From a virus, in the IMG/VR virus record IMGVR_UViG_3300042876_000590, positions 1 through 30,842 of that record: a stretch of DNA of 30,842 bases; one strand, written 5' to 3'. A program made the translations under genes and the position numbers. Below are positions 1-7,697 of this stretch, one piece after another. The notes beneath the pieces are model-generated. The model saw only the letters and a program-made list of their open reading frames with translations, was not told the origin of the DNA and did not search any database. Position 1 is the first letter of the stretch. The number at the start of each line of letters is the position of its first letter.

Positions 1-95
1 AGGTCGGCCGCGTCCGCGCGAACCTCGCCCGTGTTGTTCTCCGGGCGGAGGCTCGCGAAGTCGATGCGGCGGCGCGGGGTGGTGGAGGTGCCCAT
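1..95 (-). CDS. Probable major capsid protein, N-terminal fragment (runs off the window)
   Basis: Only the first 31 codons lie in the window. The ATG at 95-93 follows an AAAGG Shine-Dalgarno. The visible start MGTSTTPRRRIDFASLRPEN is polar and basic and matches no family on its own. The capsid call is inferred from gene order: in many phages with DUF1073 portals, the DUF2213 protease and the DUF2190-type protein are followed directly by the major capsid gene. It is transcribed in the same direction as the decoration gene, 53 bases downstream of it. Another head protein is possible. Confidence 0.5.
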   Translation of the reverse strand, partial: MGTSTTPRRRIDFASLRPENNTGEVRADAAD

Positions 96-148: not shown

Positions 149-679
149 CTACACGAGGGCCGCGTTCACGTCGAACTCGATCACGCCGATGACGTCGTTG
201 GCGGCGGCGGCCTTCACCCACTTGGCGCCCTTCACGAGCAGCGCCTTGTCGACATCGGCGTCGGCGCGGCAGGCGCCGATCACGAGCTTGCCGGCCCCGT
301 TCGCCGTGTGCCTGGCGTAGACCGCGCCGCCCGCCACGACCGCGCCGGCCTCCTTGAGCACGTAGATCTTCCCCTTCTCCATCAGGGGCACGATCGAGAG
401 ATCGGGGACGTCGACGCCGGCCACGAGCGCGGTCGTGCTCGGGTCCTGCCGGATGTCGTGGGTGTGGTGGAGCACGCCCGCGATCTTCGAGTTGGCGTCG
501 GCGAGAACGGTCACGTCACCGTCGAGCGCATTGGCGGCGCCGCCCTCGATCACGAACGTACCGAACGGGCGCGCGCTGCCGGCGTTGACGCGCACGGTGC
601 GCTTGACGCTCGTGCTGATGTCGTACGGCATGCCGCGGTACGCCGCGGCGGGGGCGATGCTGTAGCTGGTCTGGGCCAT
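149..679 (-). CDS. DUF2190-like capsid decoration / structural cement protein
   Basis: A 176-residue protein, rich in Ala, Gly and Val, probably mostly beta-strand. It resembles the small phage proteins annotated as DUF2190 or structural cement (P22 gp24-like), which bind the outside of the expanded capsid. Seen: the start MAQTSYSIAPAAAYRG, the segment GGAANALDGDVTVLADANSK, and a C-terminus ending in a hydrophobic strand (NDVIGVIEFDVNAALV). The ATG was chosen because AGGAGC lies just upstream, in the 29-base gap after the protease gene. The frame stays open far upstream of this ATG, but that extension is antisense-like Arg-rich sequence overlapping the protease gene and was rejected. The family call is from similarity of pattern and position, not from a search. 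Confidence 0.65.
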   Translation of the reverse strand: MAQTSYSIAPAAAYRGMPYDISTSVKRTVRVNAGSARPFGTFVIEGGAANALDGDVTVLADANSKIAGVLHHTHDIRQDPSTTALVAGVDVPDLSIVPLMEKGKIYVLKEAGAVVAGGAVYARHTANGAGKLVIGACRADADVDKALLVKGAKWVKAAAANDVIGVIEFDVNAALV

Positions 680-708: not shown

Positions 709-1332
709 CTACTTGGTCTTCCACGCGTCCGCGTTGCGCTTCGCCATGGCCGCGCGCGCGGTCTCGGCGTCCTCGCGCTTCTCCCCGCCGGCGGGCGGGG
801 GCGCGCCGAGCAGGCCCGCGCCCGTGGCGGTCGCGTCGACCTTGACGCGGGCTATGTCGAAGGACGCGGCGACGTAGGCGTCGGCCTTGCCCTCGAGCGA
901 GACGCCGTTCACCTTCTCGGCGACAGCGCGGCGGAGCGCGGGGAGGTCCAGCGCATCGATCTTCACCTCGACGCCGGCCCGGCGGGCCACGTCGACCACC
1001 TCGAGCGCGTCGGCGACGAGCTTCGGCTGCGCCTTGGTGACGGCCTCGGCGTCGGTCTTGAGCTTGGCGACCTCGGCGGTCAGCGCGTCGGCCTTGGCCT
1101 GCGCCGCGGCGAGCGCGTCGGCCTTGCCACCGAAGACGTGACCGCACTTGTCGCACTTCTTGGCATCGGCCGCGCACTTGGCGCCGCACTCGGGGCACGT
1201 CTTCATGCCCTCGGCAGCGTCGATGCGGGCCTTGGTGCTCGCCGCGTCGGTGCGCGCCTGCGCCTCGATCGCGTCGCACACGACGGCCGGCAGCTTGAAC
1301 TTCATCCCGTTGATCGTGATCTCGCGCTCCAT
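709..1332 (-). CDS. Candidate nested scaffold protein (internal in-frame start)
   Basis: Met206 of the DUF2213 protein is encoded by an ATG at 1332-1330. It is preceded by GAGGAGAGTCCG, an excellent Shine-Dalgarno at ideal spacing. Translation from here would give a 207-residue protein containing only the zinc ribbon and the coiled-coil scaffold region. The start falls at the junction where the protease domain ends, after a polar linker (DTRTTRDDTRTEESP). The same design is established in lambda, where Nu3 is translated from inside gene C. Seen: ATG, ribosome site and domain boundary. Inferred: that it is used. Confidence 0.5.
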   Translation of the reverse strand: MEREITINGMKFKLPAVVCDAIEAQARTDAASTKARIDAAEGMKTCPECGAKCAADAKKCDKCGHVFGGKADALAAAQAKADALTAEVAKLKTDAEAVTKAQPKLVADALEVVDVARRAGVEVKIDALDLPALRRAVAEKVNGVSLEGKADAYVAASFDIARVKVDATATGAGLLGAPPPAGGEKREDAETARAAMAKRNADAWKTK

Positions 1333-1947
1333 CGGACTCTCCTCGGTTCGGGTGTCGTCGCGCGTGGTGCGCGTGTCAGCCTCAGCGGGTAGCGCGATCG
1401 CGTCGCCCGCGTCAAGTTTCACCCGGGCGGCTGGCCCGGCGCGTCCCGCCGGAACGATCGCCACGTGATTGCCCCGGATCCTCGTCTGCTCTGTGTCGTA
1501 AGGCTGGCCGTCGTAGATGCCGCCGCCCGCGAGCACCTCGCACGTGTAGCCGCACGAGCACTCGACCGCCTCGCCGTCCAGGATCTTCTTCACGAGATCG
1601 GCACCCGTGATCATCATCGGCGCGCGCACCATCTCGCCGTCCCGCTCGACGTTCTCGCCGAGCGAACCACGTTGGTAGCGCGAGGCCGACAGGGCGTCGA
1701 CGTAGCCCTCGACGGGGTGCCCGTCCGTCACGGGGACGAGCGAGAAGGACCGGAGCGACTCGGGGTCGAAGACCTGTTCGGGCCGGCGCAGTTCACGGGT
1801 GATGGTGCCGTTCGCGTCGGCGTAAAGATAGATCCCCGTGCGCGCGATGAACGCGGGAGTCCGGAGAAATCCATCGGGCGTCTTCTCGGCCTTGCTGATC
1901 TGCCCGCGGTCGAAGCGGCGAACTCGGGTGGGGTCGATCGATGCCAT
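709..1947 (-). CDS. DUF2213 prohead protease fused to scaffold, with zinc ribbon
   Basis: A 412-residue protein. Residues 1-185 match the DUF2213 family of prohead maturation proteases (serine, S78-like fold). Candidate catalytic residues are H77 in VTDGHP and S131 in VECSCGYTCE, and H161 in RGNHVAIV lies in a typical family segment. Residues 206-345 form the scaffold part, with a long Ala/Lys/Glu coiled coil (about 275-310). Between them sits a four-Cys zinc ribbon, CPECGAKC...CDKCGH, at 251-270. The C-terminus ends in a Pro/Gly-rich tail and an Ala-rich helix. The protein should shape the procapsid and cleave head proteins during maturation. A strong GGGAGGG ribosome site precedes the ATG at 1947. 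A second start within the gene may give the scaffold alone (see 709-1332). Confidence 0.85.
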   Translation of the reverse strand: MASIDPTRVRRFDRGQISKAEKTPDGFLRTPAFIARTGIYLYADANGTITRELRRPEQVFDPESLRSFSLVPVTDGHPVEGYVDALSASRYQRGSLGENVERDGEMVRAPMMITGADLVKKILDGEAVECSCGYTCEVLAGGGIYDGQPYDTEQTRIRGNHVAIVPAGRAGPAARVKLDAGDAIALPAEADTRTTRDDTRTEESPMEREITINGMKFKLPAVVCDAIEAQARTDAASTKARIDAAEGMKTCPECGAKCAADAKKCDKCGHVFGGKADALAAAQAKADALTAEVAKLKTDAEAVTKAQPKLVADALEVVDVARRAGVEVKIDALDLPALRRAVAEKVNGVSLEGKADAYVAASFDIARVKVDATATGAGLLGAPPPAGGEKREDAETARAAMAKRNADAWKTK

Positions 1948-1983: not shown

Positions 1984-2904
1984 TCACGTCGCGTCGAGGG
2001 CGTCGAGCAACGGCGTCAGATCCGGCTCCGCTTGGCACCGGCAGTTGATCGGCTCGCCGGGATTGCCCTCGACCGCGTCCCCGCCGCTCTCCCACGTGAA
2101 CGACGTGCCCTCGAGGTCATAGTGCGAGTCCCGGACCCTGTTGTCGCGTGCCGTCCTCCACACGTACGAGTCGACGCCGACATCCCTCTGCCGGGCCTGG
2201 TTGAGCTCGGCGTAGAACTTGCCGACCTGGTCCCGCGCGATCCTCTCGGCGTTCGACTCGGCGACTCCGAAGCGCTCCTCGAGCATCGGAGCGATCTCTT
2301 CCCAGCGCATGCCGCCGCGAAGGGATCGGATCAGGTTCGTCTCGATGTCGGCGAAGTAGCGCTCGGGCACCGTTCGGATCAGCGCGACGTTCTCGGCGGT
2401 GAAGCCCTCGATCCTGGCAGGCAGCCACGCCTCACCCATGCGGAACGGGTCGAAGCCGATCGCCTGCTCGAACTGCCGCGCGACCTCGCGCCGCTGGTAG
2501 TCGGAGAGCTCGACGCCGAAGCGCCGCACAGTGGCGGCGACCTTCTCGTTGGAGAACTCGGCGAAGAAGTCGCGGGCGAGATCGCGGAAGATGCGCTGCG
2601 CCGATGCGGGAGAGTCTAGGCGCAGGGTCGCGTCGTCCCCCCTCGCTCGGGTCGTCTCCTCTACCAGACTGGGCCCGAGGGGATAGAGCGCCCGCCGCAC
2701 GGCCTCGCGCGCCTGCGAGGTGAGCGCTGCGATCGCCTCGTAGTAGGTGCGCCGGATGGCGTCGGGCTGGCGCTGCGGCCGGATCTTCTTCCGCCTCAGT
2801 CGGCGTGATCGAGCACTGCCGCCGCGCGCCCTCTCTAGGGCGACAGCCGACCCGCGGCGAACCGTGAGCTGGCGCAGGAACGACGCGCCGCGGGTCGTGG
2901 TCAT
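1984..2904 (-). CDS. Head morphogenesis protein, SPP1 gp7 / Mu gpF family
   Basis: A 306-residue minor head protein. The C-terminal third has the family signature: an ARDQVGKFYAELNQARQ helix, then YVWRTARDNRVRDSHYDLEG, and the closing PINCRCQAEP (about residues 285-294), as in Mu gpF and SPP1 gp7. These proteins sit at the portal or inside the capsid and take part in head assembly and early DNA delivery. The N-terminal 40 residues are strongly basic (RLRRKKIRPQRQ). The ATG at 2904 forms an ATGA overlap with the stop of the gene before it. A longer frame upstream exists but would duplicate that gene's sequence. Confidence 0.85.
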   Translation of the reverse strand: MTTTRGASFLRQLTVRRGSAVALERARGGSARSRRLRRKKIRPQRQPDAIRRTYYEAIAALTSQAREAVRRALYPLGPSLVEETTRARGDDATLRLDSPASAQRIFRDLARDFFAEFSNEKVAATVRRFGVELSDYQRREVARQFEQAIGFDPFRMGEAWLPARIEGFTAENVALIRTVPERYFADIETNLIRSLRGGMRWEEIAPMLEERFGVAESNAERIARDQVGKFYAELNQARQRDVGVDSYVWRTARDNRVRDSHYDLEGTSFTWESGGDAVEGNPGEPINCRCQAEPDLTPLLDALDAT

Positions 2905-3137
2905 GGCGCCCACCGGTCGCAGGCGGTGCGCTCGATAGGGCGGAGCGGCAGGCCGTGCGGACCGCTCCACCACTCCACCGTCACGCGCGGCTCAAGACAG
3001 CGCCTCGGCGGGCCATCAGTCCACACGGCCAGCGCTGCGATGGCGACGATAAAAACCACGCACGCCAAGACGATCCAGATCCCACGCGCGCTGAAGTCCT
3101 CCACGCGTGTGGGCGGTCGGTTCGGGGTCGTGGTCAT
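2901..3137 (-). CDS. Small single-pass membrane protein
   Basis: A 78-residue protein with one clear transmembrane helix (IWIVLACVVFIVAIAALAVW, about residues 20-40). A polar 19-residue N-terminus precedes it; the C-terminal part is soluble and has two Cys and paired Trp residues (VEWWSG). ATGA overlaps link it to both neighbours. I do not recognise a family. Its place among tiny genes between portal and head protein, beside another protein with an N-terminal hydrophobic helix, would suit a holin- or spanin-like role, but nothing in the sequence proves it. The first 13 bases of this gene are identical to those of the next gene. Confidence 0.7.
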   Translation of the reverse strand: MTTTPNRPPTRVEDFSARGIWIVLACVVFIVAIAALAVWTDGPPRRCLEPRVTVEWWSGPHGLPLRPIERTACDRWAP

Positions 3138-4124: not shown

Positions 4125-5717
4125 CTATGCCTTGGGCGCGGCGGGGTCGGCGGGCAGCTCCTTGCCGGGCGCGGGCGTCTCGCCTGGCGGGGGAGGGGGG
4201 GGCACCTTGGCCGAGCCGTCCGGGTTGAGATCGCCCGACTCGATCCCCGCGGCCTTCGCCTCGCCGGGCGGGTTCTCGCGCAGGAACTTCTCGCGGCTCT
4301 CCGTCTGGATCCGGACGACCGTGCCGAACTTCCGCCCGCCGTAGCGCGAGATCGCGATCTCCTCGGGCTCCAGGATGCCCGCGTTCACGTTCGACGCGTC
4401 ACCTGCAGCGAAGGCCTGATAGGCCGTCGCCGTCTCCTGGTCGGTCGGCTGCCAGAGCGAGCGGAACGTGACGTTCCACTTCTCCGGCTCGACGCCCCCC
4501 GTCGGACCTCGCTTCGACAGGAAGAGAAGCCGCAGGATCCGACGAAGCTGCGGCAGCAGGTCCGTCTTCTGCCGAGCCTTGATCCGGTCGTAGTAGTTCC
4601 GGACCTCGTTCGAGCCCGTCGCGTTGAGTCCCGCGGGCGACTCGCCGAACAGGATCGTCACCGGCATGTCCGCCGCCGCGGCGAGCCGCTTTGACAGACG
4701 ATCAAGCGTCTCGGGAAGGCCCGACAACGGCGTCGGCTTCCGCTCGAACTCGTCATCCTTGCCGATCAGCACCATGCGCATGAACGACCGCTGCATCTCC
4801 ATGATCGCCGCGCGGTCCTGCACGAGCTTCGCGTTGCCGCTCGTCACGGCCTCCTTCAACCCGTCCATCTTGAACACGGCCTGCGCGAAGTCGGTCAGCA
4901 GGTACGAGGCTGCGTCCCATCCGATGTCGTGGTTGCGCAGCACCTTCCACGGCCGCTCGAGCTTCGAGTCACCCCAGCCGAGCGTCTCGCGCATTTGCCA
5001 GCGGTTCACGTTCACGCCCTCGAACCGGATGATCCTGGACTCGTGGACCTGCGCGAACGATGACCCCGTGATGAACTTCGTCCGATCCTGCGTCAGGTCC
5101 CCGGCCCCCGCATTGGAGCCCGTGAGGAACGCGGGCTGGACGCGGTACGTGCGAGGCAGGCCGAACTTCGGCGCGAACGGATCGGCGTAGTAGCTCGTCG
5201 GGTAGATCTCCCGGGCGTCCAGCACCGTCAGGAAGTCGACGCGCTCGAGCCGCTTCTCGTCGAGCGGGAGCGAGGGATCGCCCGCCTTATCGACCGCGCC
5301 GATCAGCACGGCCGCCCCGCCGGCGGCGCTGCTCTTGCGGAGCGCCTCGTTGAAGCGTGCTAGCACCTGCAGGTCGTCAGCCGCGGCGTCGACGTCGTCG
5401 CCCGCCTGCTCGTCGCCGTCGATCGAGGTCTCAAATCCCTCGCGCGTCATGTCCTCGGCGGGTCGATCACAGATGCGCGCGGCGAGGTCGTTGCCGCGGT
5501 AGAGCTCCATCAGTTCGCCGTAGGTGTGCCGCTCGGCGAGCGGGATCGACGATTCCCGCTTGTCGCGGGCGAGGTCGGCGAGCCCCATCATCACGTTGCC
5601 CCACCCCGCATCTGCGCGCTCGGAGTCTCGCGTCACGCCATGAGGGAGCCGCGCCGCATCAATACGGGCATCGAGCTTAGCGGGGGAGTCGGAGGTGCGG
5701 CGGGTGCGTCGGGACAT
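4125..5717 (-). CDS. Portal protein, DUF1073 / HI1409 family
   Basis: A 530-residue protein with the features of the DUF1073 portal family. It has an N-terminal YGELMELYRGNDLAARICDRPAEDMTREGF segment, the KSSAAGGAAVLIGAVD strand region, and the INRW-like WQMRETLGWGDSKLERPW. A central stretch ends in LFGESPAGLNATGSNEVRNYY, the strongest family signature, followed by KTDLLPQLRRILRLLFL, the stem/crown helices. Portals form a dodecameric ring at one capsid vertex through which TerL pumps DNA. The C-terminus is a Pro-rich tail (PPPPPPGETPAPG), probably disordered. It lies in the usual place between terminase and head proteins. Confidence 0.9.
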   Translation of the reverse strand: MSRRTRRTSDSPAKLDARIDAARLPHGVTRDSERADAGWGNVMMGLADLARDKRESSIPLAERHTYGELMELYRGNDLAARICDRPAEDMTREGFETSIDGDEQAGDDVDAAADDLQVLARFNEALRKSSAAGGAAVLIGAVDKAGDPSLPLDEKRLERVDFLTVLDAREIYPTSYYADPFAPKFGLPRTYRVQPAFLTGSNAGAGDLTQDRTKFITGSSFAQVHESRIIRFEGVNVNRWQMRETLGWGDSKLERPWKVLRNHDIGWDAASYLLTDFAQAVFKMDGLKEAVTSGNAKLVQDRAAIMEMQRSFMRMVLIGKDDEFERKPTPLSGLPETLDRLSKRLAAAADMPVTILFGESPAGLNATGSNEVRNYYDRIKARQKTDLLPQLRRILRLLFLSKRGPTGGVEPEKWNVTFRSLWQPTDQETATAYQAFAAGDASNVNAGILEPEEIAISRYGGRKFGTVVRIQTESREKFLRENPPGEAKAAGIESGDLNPDGSAKVPPPPPPGETPAPGKELPADPAAPKA

Positions 5718-6209: not shown

Positions 6210-7697
6210 CTACCACCCGGCCATCGCCGCGAACGCTCGAACGGCCCCGACGCGATCGACCGCGTGACGAGCGGCTCCCGTGATCGCGTCCACGTAGTCG
6301 TCGTGCAAACCCTTCTGCGGGAAACCGTGGAACTCCTGCAGCGCGTCCTCCGTCCACGGGCCACGCACGAAGAAGACGCGTCCGCGCTCGGCGTAGACGC
6401 TAAACGGCTTCGCGAGCTCGTACTTAGAGCCCGTCTTCTTGTCAGCTATGACCTCGTAGCGCGGTCCGAGCACGTTGCACCTGTAGTGCTCGATCACCTT
6501 GACGCCCGCGGAGCCCGGCTCCTGCTCGATGACGACCGGAACCGCGCGCCCGTCGTCCTTCGCCGTCGCCTCGACGAGGTCGTCGGAGCCACTCGGCGAT
6601 AGGCGCCCGCCCTGGACGTCGAGCACGTAGTAGTCCCCCGACCCCGGCGGCAGCGGGTTGGTGTCGGTCGGGCGCGGGGGATCTGGCGCGAAGCCCACGA
6701 GCGCGCCGCGCGTGAAGTCGGGATCGGGCGCCGTACCCTCTGCGGTCGCGGCGAAATCCCAGTAGCGCACGGCGGACGCTCGGACCTCGGACGGCACCTG
6801 CTCGAGGTCGATCAGCTTGAACCACTCGCGCTTGAAGAGCTTGCCGCCCGGGCGCACGTCCCAGCGGCCGTTCTTGAGTTGCTCTCGCGTGACGTGGTCG
6901 AGCTGGTCCAACTGCCCCTCGTACTCGGCTTGGTCGAGGTGAGGGTTATCGGTCAGTTTCGCGGGCACGAATCCGCGCCCGGGCTGGCGCGTCTTCTCGT
7001 TCACGAACCGCGCATAGACCCACTCATGCCCCTCGCCGCCCGGATTCGCGCCGGCGCGCATGCGCAGCGGCACGCGCGCTAGCGCTCGCAGCGGATCGTC
7101 AGGCGGGAGCGCGTCCATCTTCGGACGACGGATGCGGGACAGCAGGTAGGTGTATTGCGTCTCGGTGAACTGCGTGAGTTCGTCGAAGCCGATGCCCTGG
7201 AACTCTCCACCCTGGTACTGGAACTTGTCGTTCTCGCTCTCGAGGTGGCCGAACGCTAGGACCGAGGGCTTCGCCGGCACGCACTCCCCAGAGGACAACG
7301 TGTGCCACGTGTCGAAGTAGAACGCCTTGAGGTCGCCTGACCAGCGCACGCCGAGGCCCGCACGCGCGCGCGGCATGAGCCACTCGATCGCCCGGTCCAT
7401 GATCGCGCCCGGCTTCGCGAGATCCTTGAATGTGCGCCGCAGAATGAGGTGCGCGTACCCCGGCACGTGGACGTACTGCAGCGCGTCCATCAGAAGCGCG
7501 TCCGACTTGCCACCACCCGCCGCCCCGCCGAATAGGATCTCTCGCTCCTCCCTCGCGAGGAACGCAGCCTGACGCGCAGTCGGCGAGTGGGGACACCACC
7601 CGTTTAGGCGGCGCCCCCACTCGCGCTGGAGCTCCAGATAGATCTCGGTCGGCGTCATGCGCAGCAGCCGCGTACGTGGGTCTAGCAGCGCGTCCAT
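6210..7697 (-). CDS. terL: Terminase large subunit (TerL)
   Basis: A 495-residue packaging motor. The ATPase half has Walker A GGAAGGGKS (57-65), Walker B GIGFDE (168-173) and a coupling-motif region around AGANPGG (215-221). The nuclease half has the RNase H-like triad pattern: D314 in RYWDFAAT, E391 in VVIEQEPG, and acidic residues 466-470 in HDDYVDAITGA. TerL cuts the concatemeric DNA and pumps it through the portal. The start at 7697 has GGGGTGAT directly upstream; a later Met (residue 14) has no ribosome site. It lies 61 bases after TerS. All key residues are present. Confidence 0.95.
   Translation of the reverse strand: MDALLDPRTRLLRMTPTEIYLELQREWGRRLNGWCPHSPTARQAAFLAREEREILFGGAAGGGKSDALLMDALQYVHVPGYAHLILRRTFKDLAKPGAIMDRAIEWLMPRARAGLGVRWSGDLKAFYFDTWHTLSSGECVPAKPSVLAFGHLESENDKFQYQGGEFQGIGFDELTQFTETQYTYLLSRIRRPKMDALPPDDPLRALARVPLRMRAGANPGGEGHEWVYARFVNEKTRQPGRGFVPAKLTDNPHLDQAEYEGQLDQLDHVTREQLKNGRWDVRPGGKLFKREWFKLIDLEQVPSEVRASAVRYWDFAATAEGTAPDPDFTRGALVGFAPDPPRPTDTNPLPPGSGDYYVLDVQGGRLSPSGSDDLVEATAKDDGRAVPVVIEQEPGSAGVKVIEHYRCNVLGPRYEVIADKKTGSKYELAKPFSVYAERGRVFFVRGPWTEDALQEFHGFPQKGLHDDYVDAITGAARHAVDRVGAVRAFAAMAGW

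Follow-up and report, generated by a model that had tools for sequence, protein, structure and literature searches.

Organization of the locus

The window, that is, the whole stretch of DNA that we analysed, is a 30,842-base virus record with a GC content of 69%. Its minus strand carries head genes in the order terL, portal, MuF, the gene at 709-1947, cement and major capsid protein (Table 1). The protein encoded at 709-1947 belongs to the DUF2213 family (PF09979), scoring 142.7 bits against a curated Pfam cut-off of 22.

Table 1. Features of the head-gene region (window positions; aa, residues of the 412-residue protein)
Feature	Position	Strand	Basis or remark
Major capsid protein gene, start, cut by the window end	1..95	-	Complete in L002:4371-5363, PF09950
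Capsid cement/decoration protein gene, directly downstream of 709-1947	149..679	-	Pfam Phage_cement E 1.4e-20
Protease-scaffold fusion gene, DUF2213 head-maturation protease, 412 aa	709..1947	-	phrog_530 head maturation protease E 9.6e-84, aa 7-411
Nested gene, putative scaffold, 207 aa from Met206	709..1332	-	In-frame translation and family conservation
C-terminal helices, aa 394-411	715..768	-	AlphaFold2 model
Long helix in the scaffold half (coiled-coil-like), aa 275-323	979..1125	-	AlphaFold2 model
Zinc ribbon CPEC..CDKC, aa 248-272	1132..1206	-	UPF0547 E 6e-6, 26.7 against 29 bits, under the curated cut-off
Linker, disordered, poorly conserved, houses the internal ribosome site, aa 180-205	1333..1410	-	pLDDT <50; low conservation in alignments
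Internal Shine-Dalgarno site GAGGAGAG	1337..1344	-	Duplex energy -8.9
DUF2213 protease domain, aa 22-177	1417..1884	-	Pfam E 1.4e-41
Mu F-like head morphogenesis protein gene, directly upstream of 709-1947	1984..2973	-	Pfam Phage_Mu_F E 2.1e-17 for 1984-2904
Portal	4125-5717	-	
terL	6210-7697	-	

In the AlphaFold2 model of this protein (built from an alignment of 46 sequences) the N-terminal domain is confident, residues 180-205 fall below pLDDT 50, and order returns from about residue 206-207 as two strands and helices, one of them 49 residues long. The predicted N-terminal domain matches the T4 gp21 protease (5jbl_B, Z 13.3, rmsd 2.6 over 143 residues; the rows of this VIA-align comparison cover residues 1-173), and a Foldseek search with the model returned the T4 gp21-like prohead protease fold at E 2.6e-5. 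Herpesvirus proteases are the next structural matches to the domain, with Z values of 4.8-5.5 that are weak on their own. His77, Ser131 and His161 are invariant across the 46 rows of alignment A6, which were hand-picked from the family clusters described below plus L002, L017, L019 and L020 and limited to loci allowed for folding. The N-terminal domain is predicted to have a T4 gp21-like prohead protease fold.

The 162-position profile phrog_36941 goes by the name of head maturation protease, yet its match is confined to the scaffold half (residues 271-375); it may group stand-alone scaffolds that have wrongly been called proteases. The gene of locus L002 is otherwise identical to that of the window, and all 16 nucleotide differences between them lie in codons 115-171 (window 1435-1603), a pattern that suggests a recombined patch or a chimeric assembly; since all the differences are confined to this patch, the pair is unusable for measuring synonymous conservation of the internal site.

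The internal start in the window

An earlier note on this DNA had proposed that a scaffold gene with its own ribosome site is nested in the protease gene and begins at Met206. Codon 206 is an ATG (1332-1330) preceded on the minus strand by GAGGAGAGTCCG, and the ribosome site, for which the note had claimed ideal spacing, is well placed: 4 nt separate the end of GAGGAGAG from the ATG, and 6 nt the end of GAGGAG. The position of Met206 relative to the protease domain, which had been placed exactly at the end of DUF2213, has to be corrected. The Pfam domain ends at residue 177, 29 residues earlier, the disordered stretch 180-205 comes between, and Met206, where predicted order resumes, marks the beginning of the C-terminal half in the model. 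The nested frame of 207 residues holds everything C-terminal of the disordered linker.

To score Shine-Dalgarno (SD) sites, bases -18 to -5 were paired with ACCUCCUUA by ViennaRNA duplexfold, an anti-SD from which those of the real hosts may differ. The value of the internal site was equalled or beaten in 48% of 300 draws that kept the same residues and used the gene's own codons. Within this GC-rich window alone, then, codon use suffices to account for the strength of the ribosome site, and a chance ATG behind GC-rich Glu-Glu codons would be a possible explanation; this explanation is ruled out by the family (see below). Since the site of the window is attainable by chance, we used relatives for testing.

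The main start at 1947 has GGGAGG only 2 nt from its ATG. When pairing is required to end at least 4 nt from the ATG, the main start scores -3.4 against -8.9 for the internal site. With the spacing limit removed, the main start reaches -10.8 and pairs at least as well as the internal site, so its weakness depends on spacing. The same comparison was made in 12 of the 13 annotated phage loci (L004, whose annotated start lies inside the domain, was excluded). The nested SD is stronger than that of the annotated main start in 9 of the 12 phages and the main SD is stronger in 3, with means of -6.2 and -4.5, respectively, for annotated starts that are possibly wrong in places (for example, L007 and L009). 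From these SD strengths we infer that scaffold may be made in surplus over protease.

Conservation of the internal start across the family

Relatives were collected from 13 annotated phage regions, IMG/VR scans and genome scans, which gave 230 sources with the window included. A DUF2213 ORF is carried by 226 of these; L167, L216, L217 and L218 have no domain match. We kept the 214 ORFs that are complete at the 3' end and continue for 60 residues or more past the domain, and grouped them into 96 clusters at 70% identity, the window clustering with L001, which is the window itself. Twelve ORFs were dropped, nine for having no stop within the locus (L040, L078, L079, L109, L112, L155, L165, L203 and L229) and three for having fewer than 60 residues after the domain, namely L042 and L043, in which the scaffold is a separate ORF, and L161, in which the frame is broken. 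The break in L161, a T1-like locus, falls within the scaffold half, and a sequencing error is possible there.

The family is large. Of 50,697 phage records, 1,627 have a tblastn match to the window protein; PB1 is among the matches listed, and T1 isolates surface when a Webervirus relative is the query. The direct query P0001 gave 2 loci in viral contigs and none in genome contigs, and L011 as the query gave no loci. DUF2213 searches of 369 and 391 genomes of two classes matched 3 and 2 genomes, centre genomes included. The nested half used alone in tblastn (E 0.1) finds only 3 phage records, and conservation was therefore tested through the full-length genes.

We defined the junction as the 50 codons after the domain and a strong SD as an energy of -5 or lower. 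An in-frame ATG occurs at the junction of every gene of the sample (214 of 214, in 96 of 96 clusters); its median distance from the domain is 19 codons (range 4-48 over the 96 clusters). A strong SD precedes the best junction ATG in 194 of the 214 genes and 85 of the 96 clusters; the clusters share descent and are not 96 independent events, so that relatedness inflates this count. Shuffling the order of the codons in the same stretch gives an expectation of 18.4 clusters. Synonymous shuffling, with the same choice of the best ATG, gives an expectation of 44.7 and a maximum of 54 in 200 draws, against the 85 observed. Elsewhere in the same genes strong SDs are rare, preceding 5.5% of the 253 ATGs within the protease domain and 14.7% of the 375 ATGs further downstream. 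Counted in fifty-codon windows, a strong site occurs in 4.7% of 275 windows inside the domain, in 14% of 315 beyond +50, and in 9.1% of 1229 from neighbouring stretches, which were taken as ORF-like stretches and not as curated genes.

Among the 88 clusters whose site has an energy of -4 or lower, the consensus reads AAGAGGA over positions -14 to -8 and is strongest at GAGG (-12 to -9). The register of the SD against the reading frame is not constant (53, 37 and 2 clusters, with 4 lacking the core), which means that the encoded residues vary while the nucleotide motif is kept. The excess of SD strength over the synonymous control is wide, and supports selection on these bases as a ribosome site and not as protein sequence. 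With clustering at 50% identity, 43 of 51 scored clusters keep the strong ATG site; at 40% the figure is 21 of 26, and at 30% it is 10 of 11. Predicted mRNA structures leave the stretch from SD to ATG more open than other parts of the gene: over 96 clusters its accessibility has a median percentile of 83 and a mean of 73. At the protein level, 11 positions of alignment A6 are nearly invariant; Met206 is among them, and after residue 179 no other position is conserved. Met fills this column in 42 of 46 rows of an alignment that is itself uncertain through the linker.

The explanation would be undermined by relatives that have both protease and scaffold and lack the internal ATG or its SD, and we looked for them. 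Of the 11 clusters without a strong ATG site, three have a GTG with a strong SD (L004, -5.4; L034, -8.4; L047, -12.9); by contrast, of the 85 clusters with a strong ATG site just 2 also have a GTG at -5 or lower (6 if TTG is counted). In the other eight the junction ATG follows a weak SD (-3.2 to -4.3), which is proof neither for nor against. Given junction ATGs in 96 of 96 clusters, strong SDs in 85 and GTG sites in three more, there is no clear counter-example among the 96 clusters.

A different source of free scaffold would be the protease itself, if only the full-length protein were translated and then cut in its own linker, the Met and the purine-rich codons being by-products of a linker rich in Glu, Lys and Gly. 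The linker is disordered and exposed in the model, the authors of the Pa193 capsid structure (see below) consider cleavage in the passages covered, and the SD of the window is, as noted, no better than chance given its residues. However, autocleavage predicts neither a start codon in all 96 clusters nor SDs above the level of synonymous recoding, nor the GTG with a strong SD in three exceptions, nor the separate scaffold ORFs described below for L042 and L043. Because the start codon is conserved and the SDs exceed the synonymous control, autocleavage was rejected as the sole source of free scaffold, and translation of the full-length protein only is improbable; cleavage may act alongside the internal start.

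Even less probable, and likewise rejected, is the reading that ribosomes pause at the internal SD, so that the protease domain can fold ahead of synthesis of the helical half, and never use the ATG. The site does lie between two folded parts of the model. For a translational pause, however, no start codon would have to stand at a fixed distance 3' of the SD, whereas such a codon is kept throughout, with GTG replacing ATG in exceptions. A fusion of two genes by sequencing error was also rejected, as the frame is continuous and relatives as a rule have the two parts fused as well.

Relatives with a separate scaffold ORF

In L042 and L043 the protease ORF stops 18 and 20 residues, respectively, past the domain, and the scaffold is a separate ORF downstream. 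These separate ORFs resemble the C-terminal halves of L038 and L039 (E 0.001 and 3e-14). The Met before the shared segment has a strong SD-ATG site in both (L042, -9.2; L043, -8.2), within scaffold ORFs that extend to the ends of the loci and offer other possible starts further upstream. L043 (508-2213) has two further peculiarities: a helix-turn-helix gene (1977-2213; HTH_3, MqsA antitoxin-like) sits between the protease and scaffold ORFs, and the protease ORF also has an N-terminal NUDIX domain.

The C-terminal half as a putative scaffold

When profile A6 was compared with solved structures, a single match was obtained at E of 1 or lower: chain G of 9B40, the 'scaffolding protein' gp24 of phage Pa193, at E 2e-70. 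Pa193 gp24 is the orthologue of PB1 gp22 and is nearly identical to it over the 465 residues of PB1 gp22, with an offset of 13, so that PB1 Met182, invariant in alignment A3, corresponds to Pa193 Met195. In the parts of the Pa193 paper covered, gp24 is described as a putative scaffolding protein of 478 residues, of which residues 286-326 are seen by cryo-EM as pentamers of a helix-turn-helix, located inside the capsid at the five-fold vertices, and the bound helix-turn-helix is likened to the coat-binding domain of the P22 scaffold. The piece was seen in mature virions, not in procapsids, and not in the related phage E217, and the authors were unable to say, in those parts, whether gp24 is cleaved or the rest of it is flexible. 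The word 'protease' is absent from the main text of the Pa193 paper, and the passages covered mention no internal start; the E217 paper (PMC10329688) has no occurrence of 'protease', 'scaffold' or 'mass spectrometry'. The bound fragment 286-326 falls wholly inside the nested product, downstream of Met195. The Pa193 capsid structure is the best evidence for the C-terminal half being the scaffold, and supports this assignment. The literature behind this and the other comparisons made here, as far as it was covered, is PMC8770471, PMC8508860, PMC11447400, PMC3185693, PMC11042391, PMC12749128 and PMC2628397.

The nested protein could also be made and serve as a vertex protein or a regulator of the protease, the N-terminal arm of the capsid protein doing the scaffolding. 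The Pa193 fragment staying at the vertices of the mature virion would suit such a role. So would the capsid protein of the T1-like phage TLS, which, according to the parts of the source covered, loses its N-terminal 45 residues, the authors' putative scaffolding portion. However, between the MuF and capsid genes only the 709-1947 gene and the cement gene have family matches (ORFs of 62-85 residues between portal and MuF are left out of this statement), and the bound Pa193 helix-turn-helix looks like the part of a scaffold that binds coat protein, as its authors say in the passages covered. The capsid Pfam domain of the window phage starts at residue 84 of 330, which leaves an arm shorter than the 102-residue delta domain of HK97, a weak argument in the same direction. 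We consider this alternative unlikely, if marginally less so than translation of the full-length protein only.

The earlier note had given the nested product a zinc ribbon and a coiled coil. In the window the ribbon is there in the sequence, and the modelled 49-residue helix is coiled-coil-like; the ribbon, however, is not part of a general design. NCBIfam gives only weak zinc-ribbon matches, below the cut-off, and a search of the 214 genes for the CxxC-CxxC pattern found it only in the window, in L001, which is the same sequence, and in L002, which is 99% identical. By this pattern search the zinc ribbon is an oddity of the window phage and L002 and no part of the general mechanism. The scaffold of these two may be zinc-dependent.

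Proposed mechanism

The comparison across the family strongly supports use of the internal start to make scaffold, a reading to which we give a probability of about 0.85. One mRNA region would yield two proteins with a common C-terminus: initiation at 1947 would give the 412-residue protease-scaffold fusion, and initiation at the internal GAGGAG-ATG (1332) would give a 207-residue scaffold without the protease. Judging by the design, many copies of scaffold and few of the fusion would co-assemble through their common helical C-terminal half. The co-assembled scaffold would then guide the major capsid protein into a procapsid, as the Pa193 structure suggests. By the precedents of lambda and the Mu-like phages, the fusion copies would carry a metered dose of protease into the procapsid, and the protease would then digest the scaffold and trim the capsid protein. 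We infer the production of both proteins here, their ratio and the order of events; the explanation as a whole, with protease and scaffold co-assembling from one mRNA region, appears to us just as probable as the use of the start itself. The nested scaffold proposed in the earlier note is thus supported from two sides, by a start and SD conserved across the family and by the capsid-bound C-terminal piece of Pa193.

A wider reading would join these observations, and we lean towards it with some reserve. The nested start would be ancestral and nearly universal in DUF2213 head genes, including those of phages of Gram-negative bacteria, of Lachnospiraceae and Oscillospiraceae contigs, of T1 and of the PB1 group. 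A protease of the gp21 fold would then follow the rule of lambda, Mu and the herpesviruses, in which one gene gives two products with a common C-terminus, and a single internal ribosome site would set the ratio of protease to scaffold. The vertex pentamers of Pa193 would come from the nested protein and not from cleaved gp24.

Comparison with known systems

The earlier note had called the nested design rarely annotated for DUF2213 proteins, and the records examined here bear this out. None of the 13 annotated regions that we fetched has a CDS marked at the internal start. Of 829 matching records 60 were listed, mostly T1-like; in 54 of these one feature alone spans the nested stretch, and 6 are unannotated. 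We found no description of a nested scaffold in DUF2213 phages (T1, PB1 and Pa193) among the matches listed in a limited literature search that covered few subscription journals.

The design itself is already known. In herpesviruses the protease-scaffold UL26 and the scaffold UL26.5 share a frame and a 3' end, the short form (UL26.5) coming from its own transcript and not from internal ribosome binding on one mRNA. Mu I/Z has the same nested design as proposed here. A Mu-type protease family is absent from the Pfam and PHROG matches of the window proteins. The lambda protease gpC belongs to the ClpP/SppA-like fold class, and the MD8 paper, in the parts covered, models a protease that aligns with that of lambda on ClpP. 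The likeness to lambda C/Nu3 lies in the order of the parts, with the protease in front and the scaffold behind in one frame, a common 3' end and an internal start for the scaffold. The hallmark of that design, a conserved internal in-frame start with a ribosome site at the border of protease and scaffold, is found in the DUF2213 genes. The two differ in the protease, that of DUF2213 having a predicted T4 gp21 fold: the design is alike, the protease family is not. Genes 28 and 29 of the Mu-like phage KS10 are a known nested pair, for which the passages covered tabulate AGGA-ATG at gene 29.

The closest likeness is to Pa193 gp24, an orthologous DUF2213 protein with a C-terminal piece bound inside the capsid. 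If the nested start is used, this bears on whether gp24 is cleaved or the remainder of it is flexible, in a phage described, in the parts of the paper covered, as therapeutic. Many phages would gain a named scaffold, and the setting of the protease dose would be explained. The DUF2213 case would be a further instance of the design known from lambda, the Mu-like phages and the herpesviruses, and apparently one that extends through an entire large family.
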